Assembly: GCF_900090285.1 (NCBI RefSeq)
Contig: NZ_LT607754.1
Coordinates: forward strand, 1,674,001-1,738,000
Origin: Micromonospora inositola
GTDB lineage: Bacteria; Actinomycetota; Actinomycetes; Mycobacteriales; Micromonosporaceae
Length of the DNA stretch: 64,000 nucleotides
Direction of reading: 5' to 3'
The first letter of the stretch is position 1; each line of letters starts with the position of its first letter. Below, in pieces: positions 504 to 36,875 of the stretch. Under the pieces are notes generated by a model that was not told the origin of the DNA, did no database searches, and saw only the letters and a program-made list of their open reading frames with translations. The translations under genes and the position numbers were made by a program.

Positions 504-3347
504 TCACGGACGCGACGTGACCGCTGCGAGCAGGCCGGCCAGCCGCCGGCCGGTCCGGGTCTGCGCGTACGGGATCAGGGCCAGCGCCTCCTGCCACGCC
601 CGCACCGCGGCGTCCTGGTCGCCGGCGGCGGCGAGGGCGTCGCCGAGCAGCGCCAGCACCTCCGCGGCCGGCGCCGACGCCGAGGCCTCCTGGTAGGCGA
701 CGGCCGCCTCGCGCCAGCAGTCGACCGCCTTGCCGAGCTCCCGGCGGGCGGAATGCACCTGGCCGAGCACCTCCCACGCCTCGGCGATGCCCAGCCTGTA
801 CTGCGCTCCGCGCGACAGCGCCATCGCCTGCTCGGCGCAGCGCACGGCCTCTTCCTCCCGGCCCAGTTCGGCGTTGCTCGCGGCCATGATCACCAGGGCG
901 TCCGCGAGCAGTTTGTCGTCTCCGGCCGCCCATGGCCCCAGCGCCGCGGAAAGCGCCCGGACGACCTCCTCGTGTCGCCCCTGGGCGCCCAGGATCATCG
1001 CCCGGTTGATCGCGGCCCGGGTCATCTCGCCGTGCAGGCCGAGCCGGGCGAGCAGCACGAGCGCCTGGTCGAGATGCCCGACCGCGGTCTCGTGCTCGCG
1101 CCGGAAGTAGGCCGCCCCGGCCAGGCTGCGGTGCATCCGGGCCTGCCCGACCAGGTCGCCGCCCGCCCGGGCGGCCCCGAGGGCCACCTCGCCGGTCGCC
1201 GTCCAGTCGGCCCACCGGCCGCTGCGGTCGAAGAAGTGCTGCATGCCCAGGGCGAGCTGCCAGGCGTCGGTGTGCCGGCCCTGCCGGGCGGCCCGGCCGA
1301 CCAGCGCGATCAGGACCTGCCGCTCGGCGGTGAACCAGCGCATGGCGTCGCCGTGGCCGGCGAAGCGCAGCGGGGTCTCGCCGGGCCCCGGCTCGATCAT
1401 CGGGTGGTACTCGGAGGCCAGCAGCCGCCGGTGCGCCTGATAGCAGGTGGCCCGGTAGAACTGCAGGCAGCGCAGCTCCGCGGCGGCGCGCTCGGCCGGG
1501 CTGTCGTTCTCCTCGCCGAGCTCCGCGGCATAGGCCAGCAGCAGGTCGTGGGTGCGGTAGCGGCCCGGCAGGTCCTCGCTGATCAGGTGCGCGCGGCTCA
1601 GCTCGCCGATCAGCGCCCGCCCGGTCCGCAGCGGGACGCCGGCCAGGCCCGCCGCCCCGGCGATCGAGATGTCGGGGCCGGGATGGATCGGCAGCAGCCG
1701 GAAGAGCCGGGCGGCCGGGGCGGAGAGTGCCTGGTAGGACCAGGAGAAGACGGCACGCAGGCCGGTCTGCGGGTCGTCGCCGTCGAAGCCGTCCAGGCTC
1801 CCGGGCGCTTGGGCCAGCTCGGCGGCGATCTGCGCCGGTGGCGTCCGCGGCAGGCTCGCCGCTCGGGCGGCCACCACGGCCAGCGCGAGCGGCAGCCGCC
1901 CGCAGCTGGCGATGATGGCGTCGATCGCGGCCGGGTCCGCCGCGACGCGGCTGGCGCCGAGCGGCCCGAGGAGCGCCGCGCGGGCCTCGTCGAGGCTCGG
2001 CAGGTCGACCGGCAACGGGTGGGCGCCGGCCGTGGTCAGCAGGCTGCTGAGCCGGCTGCGGCTGGTGACGATCACCAGACAGTCGGGGCTGCCCGGCAGC
2101 AGGTGCCGGATCTGCTCGGCGTCCCGGCAGTTGTCGAGCACGATCAGCAGGCGCCGGCCGGCAAGGCTGCTGCGGTACATGCCCGCCTGGGCGTGCAGCT
2201 CGGCGGGAATGCCCTCCTGGGGCACCCCGAGCGAGCCGAGGAACCCGCGCAGCGCCTCGGCCGGGCTCATCGCCGGCTCCCGCCCGTCGTATCCGCGCAG
2301 GTCGACATACAGCTGCCCGTCCGGGTAGCCGGCGGCGAACTCGTGGGCGAGGTGGACGGCGAGGGCGGTCTTGCCGATCCCGGGCATGCCGTCGATCGCG
2401 AGCACCGCCGGCCCGCCCGGACGCGCGACCGCCGCGCGGGCCTCGGCGATGAGGTCGTCCCGGCCGCTGAAGAAGGGCAGGTCCGGCGGCAGCTGCGCGG
2501 GCCGGGGGAGTGGCGACGGCGACTCGGTACGCGCCGGCCGGGTGCGCTGGTGCAGCAGCCGGTCGTACGCCTCCCGCAGCTCCTCGCCCGGATCGATGCC
2601 CAGGTCGTCGGAGAGCCGGCGGCGCACCACCCGGTACATCTCGACGGCTTCCGCCTGGCGGCCGTCGGCGGCGAGCGCGAGCAGCAACCGGCTCTGCAGC
2701 GACTCGTCGAGCGGGTGCTGCTCGGCGGCGTGCCGCAACGGCGCCAGCACCGCGCCCAGCCGGCCGCAGCGCTCGGCGGCGTCGGCGGCCTCGCGCACGG
2801 CCTGGGCGCGTTCGGCCTCCACGGCGAGGAACGCAGGATGCAGGCGGGAGGCCGGTTCCAGGCCCGCGGCGCACCGGCCGCGCCACAGCCGCAGCCCGTC
2901 GAGGGAATGCCGCAGCGCCGACTCCGGGTCGCCGTCCTGCAGGCTCCGGCCGGCCAGCCGGCTCAGCGACCGGAACTTCAGCAGGTCAAGGGACTCCTCG
3001 TCGGCGCGCAGCCGATAGCCCGAGAGCTCCCGGAGGATGTGCCGGCCCGCCGACCGGGTGGCCAGGCCGGGCTCGAGCAGCCGCCGGAGCACCCCGACGT
3101 GCCGGTGCACGACGTTCGCGGCGCTGGCCGGAGCCTCCTCGTCCCAGAGCAGGTCGACCAGCTCGGCCAGGGAGACCGGTGAACCGGCCCGGGCCAGCAG
3201 CAACGCGAGCACCAGGCGCTGCTGGCGGGCGCCCAGACGCAGCTCGGCGCCGGCGCGGACGACCCTGATCGAGCCGAGCACCGAGAAGCCGATCGTCTCG
3301 CCCGCCTCCGCCCGCACACCGGCAACGGTAACCGGCCGATCCGCCAC
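504..3347 (-). CDS. SARP/AfsR-type regulator: winged helix, BTAD, NB-ARC, TPR
   Basis: Large STAND-type transcription factor of about 947 aa. In order: an OmpR-like DNA-binding domain (about residues 21-117, FSVLGSIRVV to the recognition helix near SLAELVDLLW), a bacterial transcriptional activation domain (about 124-269, ending YDRLLHQR), a P-loop ATPase (GMPGIGKTAL at about 320-329; RLLIVLDN as Walker B), then TPR-like helices to the end. AfsR/SARP proteins activate secondary-metabolite or developmental genes, but no target cluster is adjacent. The start is uncertain: GTG 3347 and GTG 3317 both lie just before the winged helix, and neither has a good ribosome binding site. The open frame continues upstream but would overlap the Rieske gene. 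Confidence 0.85.
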   Translation of the reverse strand: MADRPVTVAGVRAEAGETIGFSVLGSIRVVRAGAELRLGARQQRLVLALLLARAGSPVSLAELVDLLWDEEAPASAANVVHRHVGVLRRLLEPGLATRSAGRHILRELSGYRLRADEESLDLLKFRSLSRLAGRSLQDGDPESALRHSLDGLRLWRGRCAAGLEPASRLHPAFLAVEAERAQAVREAADAAERCGRLGAVLAPLRHAAEQHPLDESLQSRLLLALAADGRQAEAVEMYRVVRRRLSDDLGIDPGEELREAYDRLLHQRTRPARTESPSPLPRPAQLPPDLPFFSGRDDLIAEARAAVARPGGPAVLAIDGMPGIGKTALAVHLAHEFAAGYPDGQLYVDLRGYDGREPAMSPAEALRGFLGSLGVPQEGIPAELHAQAGMYRSSLAGRRLLIVLDNCRDAEQIRHLLPGSPDCLVIVTSRSRLSSLLTTAGAHPLPVDLPSLDEARAALLGPLGASRVAADPAAIDAIIASCGRLPLALAVVAARAASLPRTPPAQIAAELAQAPGSLDGFDGDDPQTGLRAVFSWSYQALSAPAARLFRLLPIHPGPDISIAGAAGLAGVPLRTGRALIGELSRAHLISEDLPGRYRTHDLLLAYAAELGEENDSPAERAAAELRCLQFYRATCYQAHRRLLASEYHPMIEPGPGETPLRFAGHGDAMRWFTAERQVLIALVGRAARQGRHTDAWQLALGMQHFFDRSGRWADWTATGEVALGAARAGGDLVGQARMHRSLAGAAYFRREHETAVGHLDQALVLLARLGLHGEMTRAAINRAMILGAQGRHEEVVRALSAALGPWAAGDDKLLADALVIMAASNAELGREEEAVRCAEQAMALSRGAQYRLGIAEAWEVLGQVHSARRELGKAVDCWREAAVAYQEASASAPAAEVLALLGDALAAAGDQDAAVRAWQEALALIPYAQTRTGRRLAGLLAAVTSRP

Positions 3348-3426
3348 CCGGAGCTTGCGACCACAGGCCCAGGGGCGGGACTGGGTCTTCGACCCCGGCG
3401 CGGCACGCGGCGGTCGTCGGCCGCCG

Positions 3427-4278
3427 TCAGGGCAGGCGGGTCTCCAGGACCCCGTCGACCACCCGGGTCGGCAGGATCTGCTGGTCGTTCGCGGACGGCC
3501 CGTGCATGACCTCGCCACCGTTGAGCCGGAAGGTGCTGCCGTGCCAGGGGCAGACCACACAGTCGTGGCCGTCGACCTCCTGCACCTCGCCCTGGCCGAG
3601 CGGGCCGCTCTGGTGCGGGCAGCGTTCCAGCATCACGGTGACCTCGTCGCCGTGCCGGTAGAGGATCACCGAGACGTCGTCCACCTCCCGGGTGACCAGC
3701 TGCCGCTGCGGCAGCGTCGCCATGTCCGCCACCGAGTGCCAGCCGTCGCTGATCCGGTGCAGCTCGGAGACGCTCTGGGTGGTCTGCGCCCCCTGCTTGT
3801 ACGCCAGGTGCCCGCCCAGGTACGCCCCGGTGCTCGCCGCGGAGAGTCCCAGGTAGGCCAGCGCCTTGCCCAGCCCGTGCCGCCCGTTCAGCCGGGCGGC
3901 CAGCGAGCCCGCGTAGAGGGCCACCCCGATGGTGTTGGAGGCTGCGTGCACCAGGCCGACCCGGCGCTGGTCGCGGGTCAGGCCGGCCCAGTCGTTGAGC
4001 CCGGCCACGGCGGCCGGCATCGCGCTGAGCGTGCCGAGCCCAACCAGTGCGGTGGCGGCCCGGCGCTGCCCGGGCAGCAGGTCGACCACAGCAGCGGAGA
4101 TCCAGGCGCCGACCGGCACCTGCACCATCGCCGGGTGCAGCGGGTGGCCGAGCCAGACGCCGTGCAGCGCGTCCCGGACCCGCTGCGGACGCAGGGTGGC
4201 CTGGACAATCCGCTGCAACCGGTCGCCCACCCGGTCCAGCGCGGAGGCCTGTTCGAGTTTCGTCAGCAGTTCACGCAC
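3427..4278 (-). CDS. DUF2231 membrane domain fused to Rieske [2Fe-2S] domain
   Basis: The N-terminal two thirds is a DUF2231-like membrane region (LHGVWLGHPLHPAMVQVP then several hydrophobic helices). The C-terminal 100 residues are a Rieske ferredoxin fold with both cluster-binding boxes, CPHQSGPLG (Cys, His) and CVVCPWHGS (Cys, His). It is probably a membrane-anchored electron-transfer protein; partner unknown. I prefer GTG 4278 (VRELLTKLEQ, GGGAAG 9 nt upstream); an in-frame ATG at 4347 would add 23 residues that look non-conserved. It is divergent from the riboswitch-nrdAB unit, with the promoters sharing about 140 nt. Confidence 0.82.
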   Translation of the reverse strand: MRELLTKLEQASALDRVGDRLQRIVQATLRPQRVRDALHGVWLGHPLHPAMVQVPVGAWISAAVVDLLPGQRRAATALVGLGTLSAMPAAVAGLNDWAGLTRDQRRVGLVHAASNTIGVALYAGSLAARLNGRHGLGKALAYLGLSAASTGAYLGGHLAYKQGAQTTQSVSELHRISDGWHSVADMATLPQRQLVTREVDDVSVILYRHGDEVTVMLERCPHQSGPLGQGEVQEVDGHDCVVCPWHGSTFRLNGGEVMHGPSANDQQILPTRVVDGVLETRLP

Positions 4279-33398: not shown

Positions 33399-34751
33399 AT
33401 GCTCGTATCACGCGGTTCGCGCGCGGCCGTGATCACGGCCTGTGCGGGGCTACTGCTCGCCACCAGCGCCTGCGGCAGCGACAAGACCGAAGGGGGTGCC
33501 ACCACCACCCAGGTGCGCCTCTACGGCACCGACGGCAACATGCTCAACTCGTACGCGGCGGAGCTGAAGGACCGCGCCGACCTCGTGAACGGGATGAAGG
33601 GCACCACCCCGCTGACCCAGCTCCCGGAGAACTTCAAGGAGCAGCTACTCAACGTAGACCCGAAGCTCACCGACTACCTCTACGCCGCGGAGACGTACGA
33701 CGCGGTGGTGATCAGCTCGCTCGCCGCTCAGCTCGCCGGCAGCACCGACCCGGCCGCGATCGCGAAGCAGATCGTCGGGGTGACCACCGGCGGGGAGCGC
33801 TGCGAGGACCCGGCGACCTGCCTGGCGCTGGCCCGGCAGGGGCGGGACATCGAGTACCGGGGGGTGTCGCTCACCCGGGCCGGGTTCACCGACGCCGGCG
33901 AGCCGGCCACGGCCAGCTACGCCACCCTGCACTTCGACGAGCAGAAGATCGACGACGGCAAGACCGAGTTCGTCGGCGCGGGCGACGAGTCGGGGGCGAG
34001 CACCAAGGCGCCGCCCCGGGCGAAGAAGCAACGTGGTGGCAAGTCGGACAAGAGTGACGGCTCCCCGCTGGTCCTCGGCGGGCTGCTGCCGCAGACCGGT
34101 GACCTGGCGCTGGCCAACCCGCCGATGGCGGCCGGCGCGGCGCTGGCCATCAAGGACGTCAACGCGGGCGGCGGGGTGCTCGGCGAGCCGGTGGTCTGGA
34201 TCGACGGCGACGACGGCACCAACCCCGCCGTCGCGAAGGCGACCGTGGTCTCGCACATCACCAAGGGCGTGCAGGTCTTCATCGGCGCGGGTGGCTCGAG
34301 CATCTCCCGCGCGGTCCTGCCGGACGTGGTCGCGGCCGGCCGGGTGCTCTTCTCCCCGTCGAACACCGACGCCGGGCTGACCACCGTGGACGACAAGGGG
34401 CTGTACTTCCGCACCGCGCCGCCGGACAGTCTCCAGGGCCGGGCGCTGGCCGACGTGATCCTGCGCGACGGGCCGCACAAGATCGTGCTGCTCGCCCGGA
34501 AGGACTCCTACGGCGAGGGCCTCCAGGAGAACGTCCGGGCCGAGCTGGAGCGGGCCGGTTTCGGCGGCGACCGGGTCAAGCTGCTGACGTACGTGCCGCC
34601 GGCCGACGCGAAGGCGCCGCCGGTCGACTTCACCGACATCGCCAAGGAGATCAAGGACTCCGGGGCGGACGCCGTGCTGGTCATCGGCTTCGGCGAGTCG
34701 GCGCCGGCGATCACCGCGCTGGCCGACGCCGGGGTGCAGATCCGGCACTGA
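33399..34751 (+). CDS. Substrate-binding lipoprotein (LivJ/Peripla_BP_6 type) with swapped lobe order
   Basis: 450 aa. Lipoprotein signal with Cys25 (LLLATSACGSD). Residues about 39-187 (VRLYGTDGNML ... YAAETYDAVVISSLAAQLAG ... FTDAGEPATASYATLHF) match what is normally the C-terminal part of LivJ-type proteins. After a Lys/Gly/Ser linker, residues 223-450 (PLVLGGLLPQTGDLA ... WIDGDDGTNPAVAKATVVSH ... RKDSYGEGLQENV ... VLVIGFGESAPAI) match the normal N-terminal part and end exactly where the other half would continue (ADAGVQIRH). This is a circular permutation with the signal peptide retained. No permease or ATPase genes are nearby. ATG 33399 has GGAGGAAGGA upstream. Confidence 0.85.
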   Translation: MLVSRGSRAAVITACAGLLLATSACGSDKTEGGATTTQVRLYGTDGNMLNSYAAELKDRADLVNGMKGTTPLTQLPENFKEQLLNVDPKLTDYLYAAETYDAVVISSLAAQLAGSTDPAAIAKQIVGVTTGGERCEDPATCLALARQGRDIEYRGVSLTRAGFTDAGEPATASYATLHFDEQKIDDGKTEFVGAGDESGASTKAPPRAKKQRGGKSDKSDGSPLVLGGLLPQTGDLALANPPMAAGAALAIKDVNAGGGVLGEPVVWIDGDDGTNPAVAKATVVSHITKGVQVFIGAGGSSISRAVLPDVVAAGRVLFSPSNTDAGLTTVDDKGLYFRTAPPDSLQGRALADVILRDGPHKIVLLARKDSYGEGLQENVRAELERAGFGGDRVKLLTYVPPADAKAPPVDFTDIAKEIKDSGADAVLVIGFGESAPAITALADAGVQIRH

Positions 34752-36569: not shown

Positions 36570-36875
36570 ATGAGCCAGGCACCGGAGAACGCCACCACGA
36601 CCGGCACCGACGGGGACACCGCGACGGTGGAGACCCGCGGCGACGAGCGGGTGGACCTGCTGCGCGCGGACACCAACAACGACGGGAAGACCGACGTGTG
36701 GGTGGTGGACACCGACGGCGACGGCAAGGCTGACCTGTTCCAGTTCGACACCGACGGCGACGGCAAGGTGGACATCACCATGGTCGACATCGACGAGGAC
36801 GGCACCCCGGACGAGGTGGTGGACGGCGACGGTGGCCTCCCGCCGGAGGAGCACTCCCCGACCGTGCAGGTCTGA
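36570..36875 (+). CDS. Small acidic protein with Ca-binding-like DxDxDG repeats
   Basis: 101 aa, strongly acidic. At least four loops follow the DxNxDG/DxDxDG pattern (DTNNDGKTDVW, DTDGDGKADLF, DTDGDGKVDIT, DIDEDGTPDEV), each followed by an aromatic or hydrophobic strand residue and spaced about 15 residues. This resembles dockerin or thrombospondin type-3 calcium loops rather than paired EF-hands. No signal peptide is seen, so it is probably cytosolic. ATG 36570 has AAGGACC upstream. Confidence 0.8.
   Translation: MSQAPENATTTGTDGDTATVETRGDERVDLLRADTNNDGKTDVWVVDTDGDGKADLFQFDTDGDGKVDITMVDIDEDGTPDEVVDGDGGLPPEEHSPTVQV

Follow-up and report, generated by a model that had tools for sequence, protein, structure and literature searches.

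The gene analysed here encodes a LivJ-type binding lipoprotein, P0001, and lies in a window of 64 kb, by which we mean the whole stretch of DNA that was analysed; its parts and neighbours are listed in Table 1. The reading frame is intact, and the coding part (33399-34748) contains no internal stop codon. We take the first 25 residues to be a lipoprotein signal peptide according to the lipobox rule, and Cys25, which is invariant in alignment A1 and nearly so in alignment A2, would be the lipidated residue. In the AlphaFold2 model of P0001, the bridge between the two segments contains a strand at residues 190-195, and residues 215-218 have pLDDT values below 50.

The long hairpin downstream of the gene is possibly a terminator; a scan for a hairpin followed by a T-run after the P0001 gene found none. 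Taken together with the opposite-strand neighbours, the hairpin suggests that the P0001 gene is a single-gene unit.

Table 1. Features at the P0001 locus, with positions counted within the window
Feature	Position	Strand	Remarks
Gene of the permuted LivJ-type binding lipoprotein P0001	33399..34751	+	450 aa + stop
Putative signal peptide and lipobox, residues 1-25	33399..33473	+	From the sequence, judged by eye
Segment A, residues 39-187	33513..33959	+	Second part in normal-order homologues, here first
Bridge and linker, residues 188-222	33960..34064	+	Old C-terminal strand DDGKTEFVGA, then K/G/S/P-rich linker
Segment B, residues 223-450	34065..34748	+	First part in normal-order homologues, here last
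Long hairpin directly 3' of the P0001 stop codon	34752..34803	+	-45 kcal/mol, z -6.7
Small gene, divergent from the P0001 gene	32846..33238	-	No Pfam family; present at 65/65 named loci
Gene of a small acidic protein with DTDGDGK repeats, near the P0001 gene but not adjacent	36570..36872	+	No Pfam family; present at 65/65 named loci

Exchanged order of the two halves

P0001 has a permuted order. The preliminary description had proposed a natural circular permutation, in which residues 39-187 normally come second and residues 223-450 normally come first, and this proposal is supported by sequence, phylogeny, gene neighbourhood and predicted fold. When the two segments were aligned separately, each matched LivJ-type homologues, in exchanged order. 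The Pfam family PF13458 (Peripla_BP_6) matched residues 225-447 with a score of 123.7 bits against a curated cut-off of 31.7, but covered only a part of the profile (positions 3-216 of 343), and a Pfam search with segment A alone gave no match even at E 10. The best stretches shared with solved LivJ-type proteins likewise fall within segment B. BLASTP with residues 35-190 retrieved normal-order homologues at E-values down to 7e-27. The identities to normal-order homologues in BLASTP were 33-48% for segment A and 35-46% for segment B, and in these homologues the segment-A match lies directly downstream of the segment-B match within one open reading frame.

The unrotated protein gave no end-to-end colinear match to ordinary LivJ proteins, the halves being exchanged. 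We also rotated P0001 in silico, and the rotated sequence aligned colinearly with 15 normal-order homologues; the joint differs by a few residues, or by an insert, before the YGTDGN/YFVDGN strand. Across 30 permuted and 57 normal rows, 43 columns share one residue in at least 93% of the rows, and they include S300, T323, Y371, E433, Y42, D45, Y100 and D101. Some of these are presumably pocket-type residues, an assignment that leans on the ligand contacts of leucine-binding protein; a literature search for those contacts returned nothing relevant.

Among the other genomes of the same genus, 35 of 36 showed a full colinear match to the permuted protein at 68-86% identity, running from residue 1 or 2 to residues 447-450. 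Several of these assemblies are single-contig, and the window's own genome is also one contig. The permuted order was found at 65 of the 65 loci from named genomes (Micromonospora, Verrucosispora, Asanoa and unclassified Micromonosporaceae), and the best 120 of 1486 database matches to P0001 were permuted without exception. In comparisons of the P0001 gene with seven relatives, dN/dS was about 0.28-0.44, which indicates purifying selection on the permuted gene. We considered an assembly artefact or a frameshifted pseudogene, since the gene is in two pieces, with a TGA, in one genome of the 36 (G014, an 890-contig draft). However, conservation in many species and genomes, including single-contig ones, excludes an assembly breakpoint, and with purifying selection acting on the gene the probability of an artefact or pseudogene is negligible. 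Assembly error, pseudogene formation and chance were all rejected on the basis of the full permuted matches and this selection.

Next, we predicted the structure of the whole chain with AlphaFold2. The model was a confident two-lobed alpha/beta structure (pLDDT 86.1, pTM 0.83), although it is a prediction only. In the model, the 15 helices and strands of segment B correspond, one after the other, to those in the first part of a normal-order model, and segment A has the same series of elements as the second part plus one extra helix (12 versus 11). Structural matches reached a Z of 17.4 for residues 222-449. Foldseek and VIA-align depend on the order of elements and covered only about residues 220-450, so that the fit of residues 39-187 rests on the AlphaFold model and on sequence homology; these programs gave no match for residues 39-187, as expected from their order-dependence, and we do not read this as an absent fold. 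P0001 is therefore predicted to fold as the usual two-lobed clamshell. The chain would enter at the strand carrying the probable pocket acid D45, a strand that we assign to the second lobe. From segment A it would run to the old C-terminus, cross via the linker to the old N-terminus, and end at the helix that formerly preceded the entry strand.

Repeated changes of gene order and their probable origin

The preliminary description had called for orthologues of both orders in Micromonosporaceae, and both kinds were found. Normal order in one open reading frame was seen at 14 fetched loci (L147-L160; 13 from Micromonosporaceae and one from family f10), and four genomes (G065, G103, G112 and G122) have one gene of each order. 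Not every genome of the family has the gene: a match at E 1e-30 was present in 230 of 300, and these matches are not all permuted; the weak family matches that were checked in genera g26, g33, g50 and g51 were normal-order genes. From the names of their nearest proteins, we take family f16 to be Geodermatophilaceae (Blastococcus, Geodermatophilus and Modestobacter) and family f15 to be Pseudonocardiaceae. All 67 f16 genomes with a listed match had a full-length gene in permuted order; further f16 members may be among the 201 genomes that gave no match and were not listed. The best 120 database matches (of 7930) to a Blastococcus homologue were all permuted, and the best 120 (of 7862) to a Pseudonocardia-type homologue were all in normal order. 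Two permuted proteins, P0137 and P0145, appear by eye to have a short tandem repeat of the segment B start.

A class-wide search found permuted proteins outside the order as well, in family f39 (L263-265 and L268), in genus g203 of family f49 (L266 and L267) and in genus g160 of family f41 (L262). Given that the class-level draws comprised 394 genomes each, more permuted lineages may exist. The break in the additional lineages falls in the same helix-strand loop; the linkers, compared by eye, are not alike, and segment A starts with YLVDGN or YFVDGN as in normal proteins, not with YGTDGN. In genus g160, 68 of 118 genomes had a match; the 30 loci returned comprised five full-length permuted genes (G765, G1023, G1044, G1052 and G1076) and 25 normal ones. 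The five permuted genes are 73-100% identical, with four liv genes beside each, and permuted and normal genes share 48-67% identity per half among the classified loci. In genus g203, where 13 genomes had a match, nine genes were full-length and permuted and two were partial; the gene of G1135 is in normal order, and in G1134 a normal gene comes directly after a diverged permuted one. At this last locus (L366), the permuted gene (1056-2483) and the normal gene (2487-3989) both lie beside livHMGF.

To place these genes, we calculated trees thinned by hand to 62 rows of 169 distinct sequences, and later to 70 and then 87 rows; the long outgroup rows N_L161 (after the half-trees) and N_L160 (after the AU sets) were left out. 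The groups in the AU tests were named by gene order: PM for the permuted rows of Micromonosporaceae, PG for those of the Geodermatophilaceae side, and X39, X49 and X41 for the permuted rows of f39, f49 and f41. The 70-row tree needed four changes of order, three of them forced by starred branches, and the 87-row tree gave the same counts. The AU test rejected a single clade of all permuted rows (p 2.2e-6), a single clade of the seven extra permuted rows (p 1.1e-4), and a single clade of PM, PG and six f39/f49 rows (p 5e-37). Therefore, at least three changes of gene order have taken place, all of them at one and the same helix-strand loop. The polarity of the change would be from normal to permuted.

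In the 87-row tree, the five X41 rows (100/99) share a 19-row clade (100/100) with 14 normal rows, and the eight X39 and X49 rows group at 96/93. The X39/X49 rows are found near two f10 rows (94/72) and not beside the normal f49 rows, so that transfer between families is possible. PG and PM fall within a 21-row clade (100/100) that holds four normal rows. One event for PG and PM had a support of 90/70 in the 62-row tree, and the AU test did not reject their joint clade in the 70-row set (p 0.53); in the tree with the AU test of PM, PG and the f39/f49 rows, PG groups with normal rows at 76/71. The stretch AGDES.AST past the old C-terminus is common to Micromonospora and to a family f13 locus (L217), a likeness that favours one event for PG and PM.

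An alternative is that the order was permuted only once, long ago, and that reversals, or gene transfer together with local recombination, produced the present distribution. The permuted lineages examined are all broken at the same loop, X39/X49 and PM/PG fall in one 31-row clade that includes six normal rows, and for one part of the tree a single gain plus reversals would cost the same number of changes. However, the AU rejections of all permuted rows and of PM, PG and the six f39/f49 rows speak against it, at 100/100 X41 groups with normal rows of the same family, the linkers are unlike between the lineages by eye, and a reversal requires the same kind of event as a gain. We consider a single ancient permutation improbable. 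Another possibility is that half-proteins or domains from two separate genes were joined in the exchanged order, and no intermediate of the duplication route has been seen that would speak against this. A possible origin from two parents was evaluated with one tree for each half, and by these trees both halves seem to derive from a single lineage. In the A-half tree the permuted rows known at that stage form one clade (96/86), and the B-half tree, which shows two changes of order, has no single permuted clade but does not reject one (AU p 0.488). Moreover, the linker joins a natural C-terminus to a spacer-like stretch. Such a fusion of two halves is very improbable, and a fusion from two parents was discarded as a candidate on the same half-trees.

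For the origin of the exchanged order, the preliminary description had suggested tandem duplication and loss of the outer halves. This remains the most economical route in view of the linker, the signal peptides and the tandem copies, although a fused intermediate was not found. A binding-protein gene would have been duplicated head to tail, and the old C-terminus would have been fused to the N-terminal spacer of the second copy; the first half-gene between the signal peptide and segment A would then have been lost and the chain truncated after segment B. In the permuted proteins, the bridge consists of the old C-terminus (GADN...YITGQI or LDD..TEFV.AGDE) and about 15-25 residues, followed by GDGVL- or DGSPL-like wording that resembles the stretch before the first strand of normal proteins. 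In addition, the signal peptide and serine-rich spacer of the permuted g203 genes closely resemble their counterparts in the normal gene of G1134, and the signal peptide and spacer of the f39 permuted genes are like those of normal Micromonosporaceae genes. Head-to-tail pairs of normal genes occur beside liv genes at four loci (L274, L275, L376 and L377), and these pairs are possible raw material for the permutation. Together, the linker, the signal peptides and the tandem pairs would be explained by a duplication and fusion in which the first B half was deleted internally and the last A half cut off, and we infer this route. No fused or three-half intermediate was found in searches that return proteins up to 1.75 times the query length, duplicated halves (> 60 bits) were absent from 361 proteins, and the only leftover flanking a permuted gene was the whole normal copy in L366. 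As for the wider meaning, we tentatively propose, at slightly less than even chances, that permutation at one fixed loop is a recurrent and selected solution in the lipid-anchored Liv binding proteins of the class.

Gene neighbourhood and probable function

No match to livH, livM, livG or livF was found at E 1e-5 within the 64-kb window, and the preliminary description had called the gene an orphan without transporter genes. This holds for Micromonosporaceae, where no liv gene was present at any of the 65 named permuted loci and 13 of 14 further permuted loci with more than 8 kb of DNA were without liv genes, the other (L233) having one LivF match of 34%. It does not hold outside the family, where 20 of 23 permuted loci (again those with more than 8 kb of DNA) adjoin all four liv genes. 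These four genes (livHMGF) adjoin the permuted gene at seven of the seven main f16 loci (L162 and L220-225), as well as at L262-267, L368-371, L378-379 and L366, and two liv genes lie near the permuted gene on the 9.4-kb contig of L217. Two second permuted copies in f16 genomes (L218 and L219) have no liv genes and represent a separate case of a permuted orphan.

Since the permuted genes mostly lie beside livHMGF, we infer that the permuted form serves there as the binding protein of the Liv importer. The f16 permuted protein is probably the local binding protein of such an importer, and the neighbourhoods in f16, f39, f41 and f49 support a working Liv binding protein.

The normal genes have a similar setting. 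All four liv genes were near 13 of the 14 normal-order loci L147-L160, and polA was near 11 of the 14; among purely normal loci longer than 8 kb, 44 of 48 had all four. The usual normal locus runs from polA through the binding-protein gene and livF/G/M/H to the gene of an ANTAR-domain response regulator. In the window's genome (G000), the polA-pdtaR locus (L237, 3857000-3874000) holds a Liv-type system that differs from the one in other Micromonosporaceae and has its own binding protein, which is full-length and in normal order according to Pfam, and the same locus appears, by a look at the sequence, to hold another Liv system in five relatives (G008, G061, G067, G069 and G091; L238-L242). The original Liv system has apparently been displaced at this locus in all six. 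In addition, the LivH most similar to the cognate one has an identity of only 35% in the window's genome, compared with 57-100% in genomes with the original cluster. The orphan state is thus real here but derived. In some genera (L088, L163, L165 and L166) the orphan permuted gene has a 4HBT thioesterase gene nearby, and a relative is found between liv and polA in L162, perhaps as a remnant of the former locus.

In Micromonosporaceae, the permuted gene would thus have become a solitary, conserved lipoprotein gene away from transporter genes. Most likely the orphan hands over a small ligand of amino-acid type to a Liv-type permease whose gene lies elsewhere. The preliminary description had raised the possibility of a ligand sensor or regulator with a membrane signalling partner in place of a transport component, and the absence of liv genes at the Micromonosporaceae loci and the distant LivH would suit such a role. 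However, the two conserved neighbours that were tested have no known domain, so that no signalling partner is evident, and other permeases of the window's genome (23 PF02653 matches, some of which are probably sugar permeases) could accept P0001 in trans. We favour binding in trans for a Liv-type permease and consider a sensor less likely. The moved lipid anchor, now on the other lobe, may be an advantage, which is a conjecture; the ligand class and the transport role are putative. As a whole, the account of a permuted type I lipoprotein that arose by duplication, with at least three changes of order and delivery in trans in Micromonosporaceae, appears highly probable to us.

Comparison with known binding proteins

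One comparison is with the homologues of the same class that occupy the locus polA - binding protein - livFGMH - pdtaR, whose order-level copies share about 33-47% identity in the halves with P0001. They have the normal order, a shorter C-terminus and no bridge linker, and their locus is shared with permuted genes of other families. P0001 also resembles LivJ and LivK (type I, Cluster B, PF13458) in the family of both halves, the predicted two-lobed fold, the export as a lipoprotein and the pocket-type residues. Unlike in LivJ and LivK, however, the halves have changed places, the old termini are connected by a strand and a linker, and no liv genes lie beside the gene in the window.

To our knowledge, most of the natural circular permutations described separate remote homologues and go back to a single, old event. 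In the present case, the two versions share a locus, a family and even a genus, together with transporter genes, so that the cause and the cost of permutation become testable. The database names shown are ordinary ('ABC transporter substrate-binding protein' or 'hypothetical protein'), and none among the matches listed mentions permutation, which is a warning that annotation misses it.

A permuted LivJ-type protein, or a repeated origin at one loop, was not found among the literature matches listed, most subscription journals being outside the coverage; in the titles and abstract starts of these matches, TpMglB-2 was the only natural permuted binding protein recognised (PMC4990184). According to the available passages of that report, TpMglB-2 (Treponema pallidum Tp0684) is a 'Type Ic' glucose-binding lipoprotein and represents a type I binding protein with a natural circular permutation; it is membrane-tethered and has relatives in several bacteria (PMC4990184). 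In this member of the MglB family, the same passages state, the first three strands of the N-lobe have moved to the C-terminus and there is a fourth hinge crossing, and the authors raised a similar idea about the anchor for tethered proteins (PMC4990184). P0001 is likewise a naturally permuted type I binding protein and, as predicted, a tethered lipoprotein. However, its break comes after the part matching LivJ-type residues 1-221, unlike the three-strand break described in these passages for TpMglB-2, and the passages are silent on repeated origins (PMC4990184). Permuted binding proteins themselves have their closest precedent in TpMglB-2, and the novel part of our results is the recurrence of the permutation at one breakpoint.
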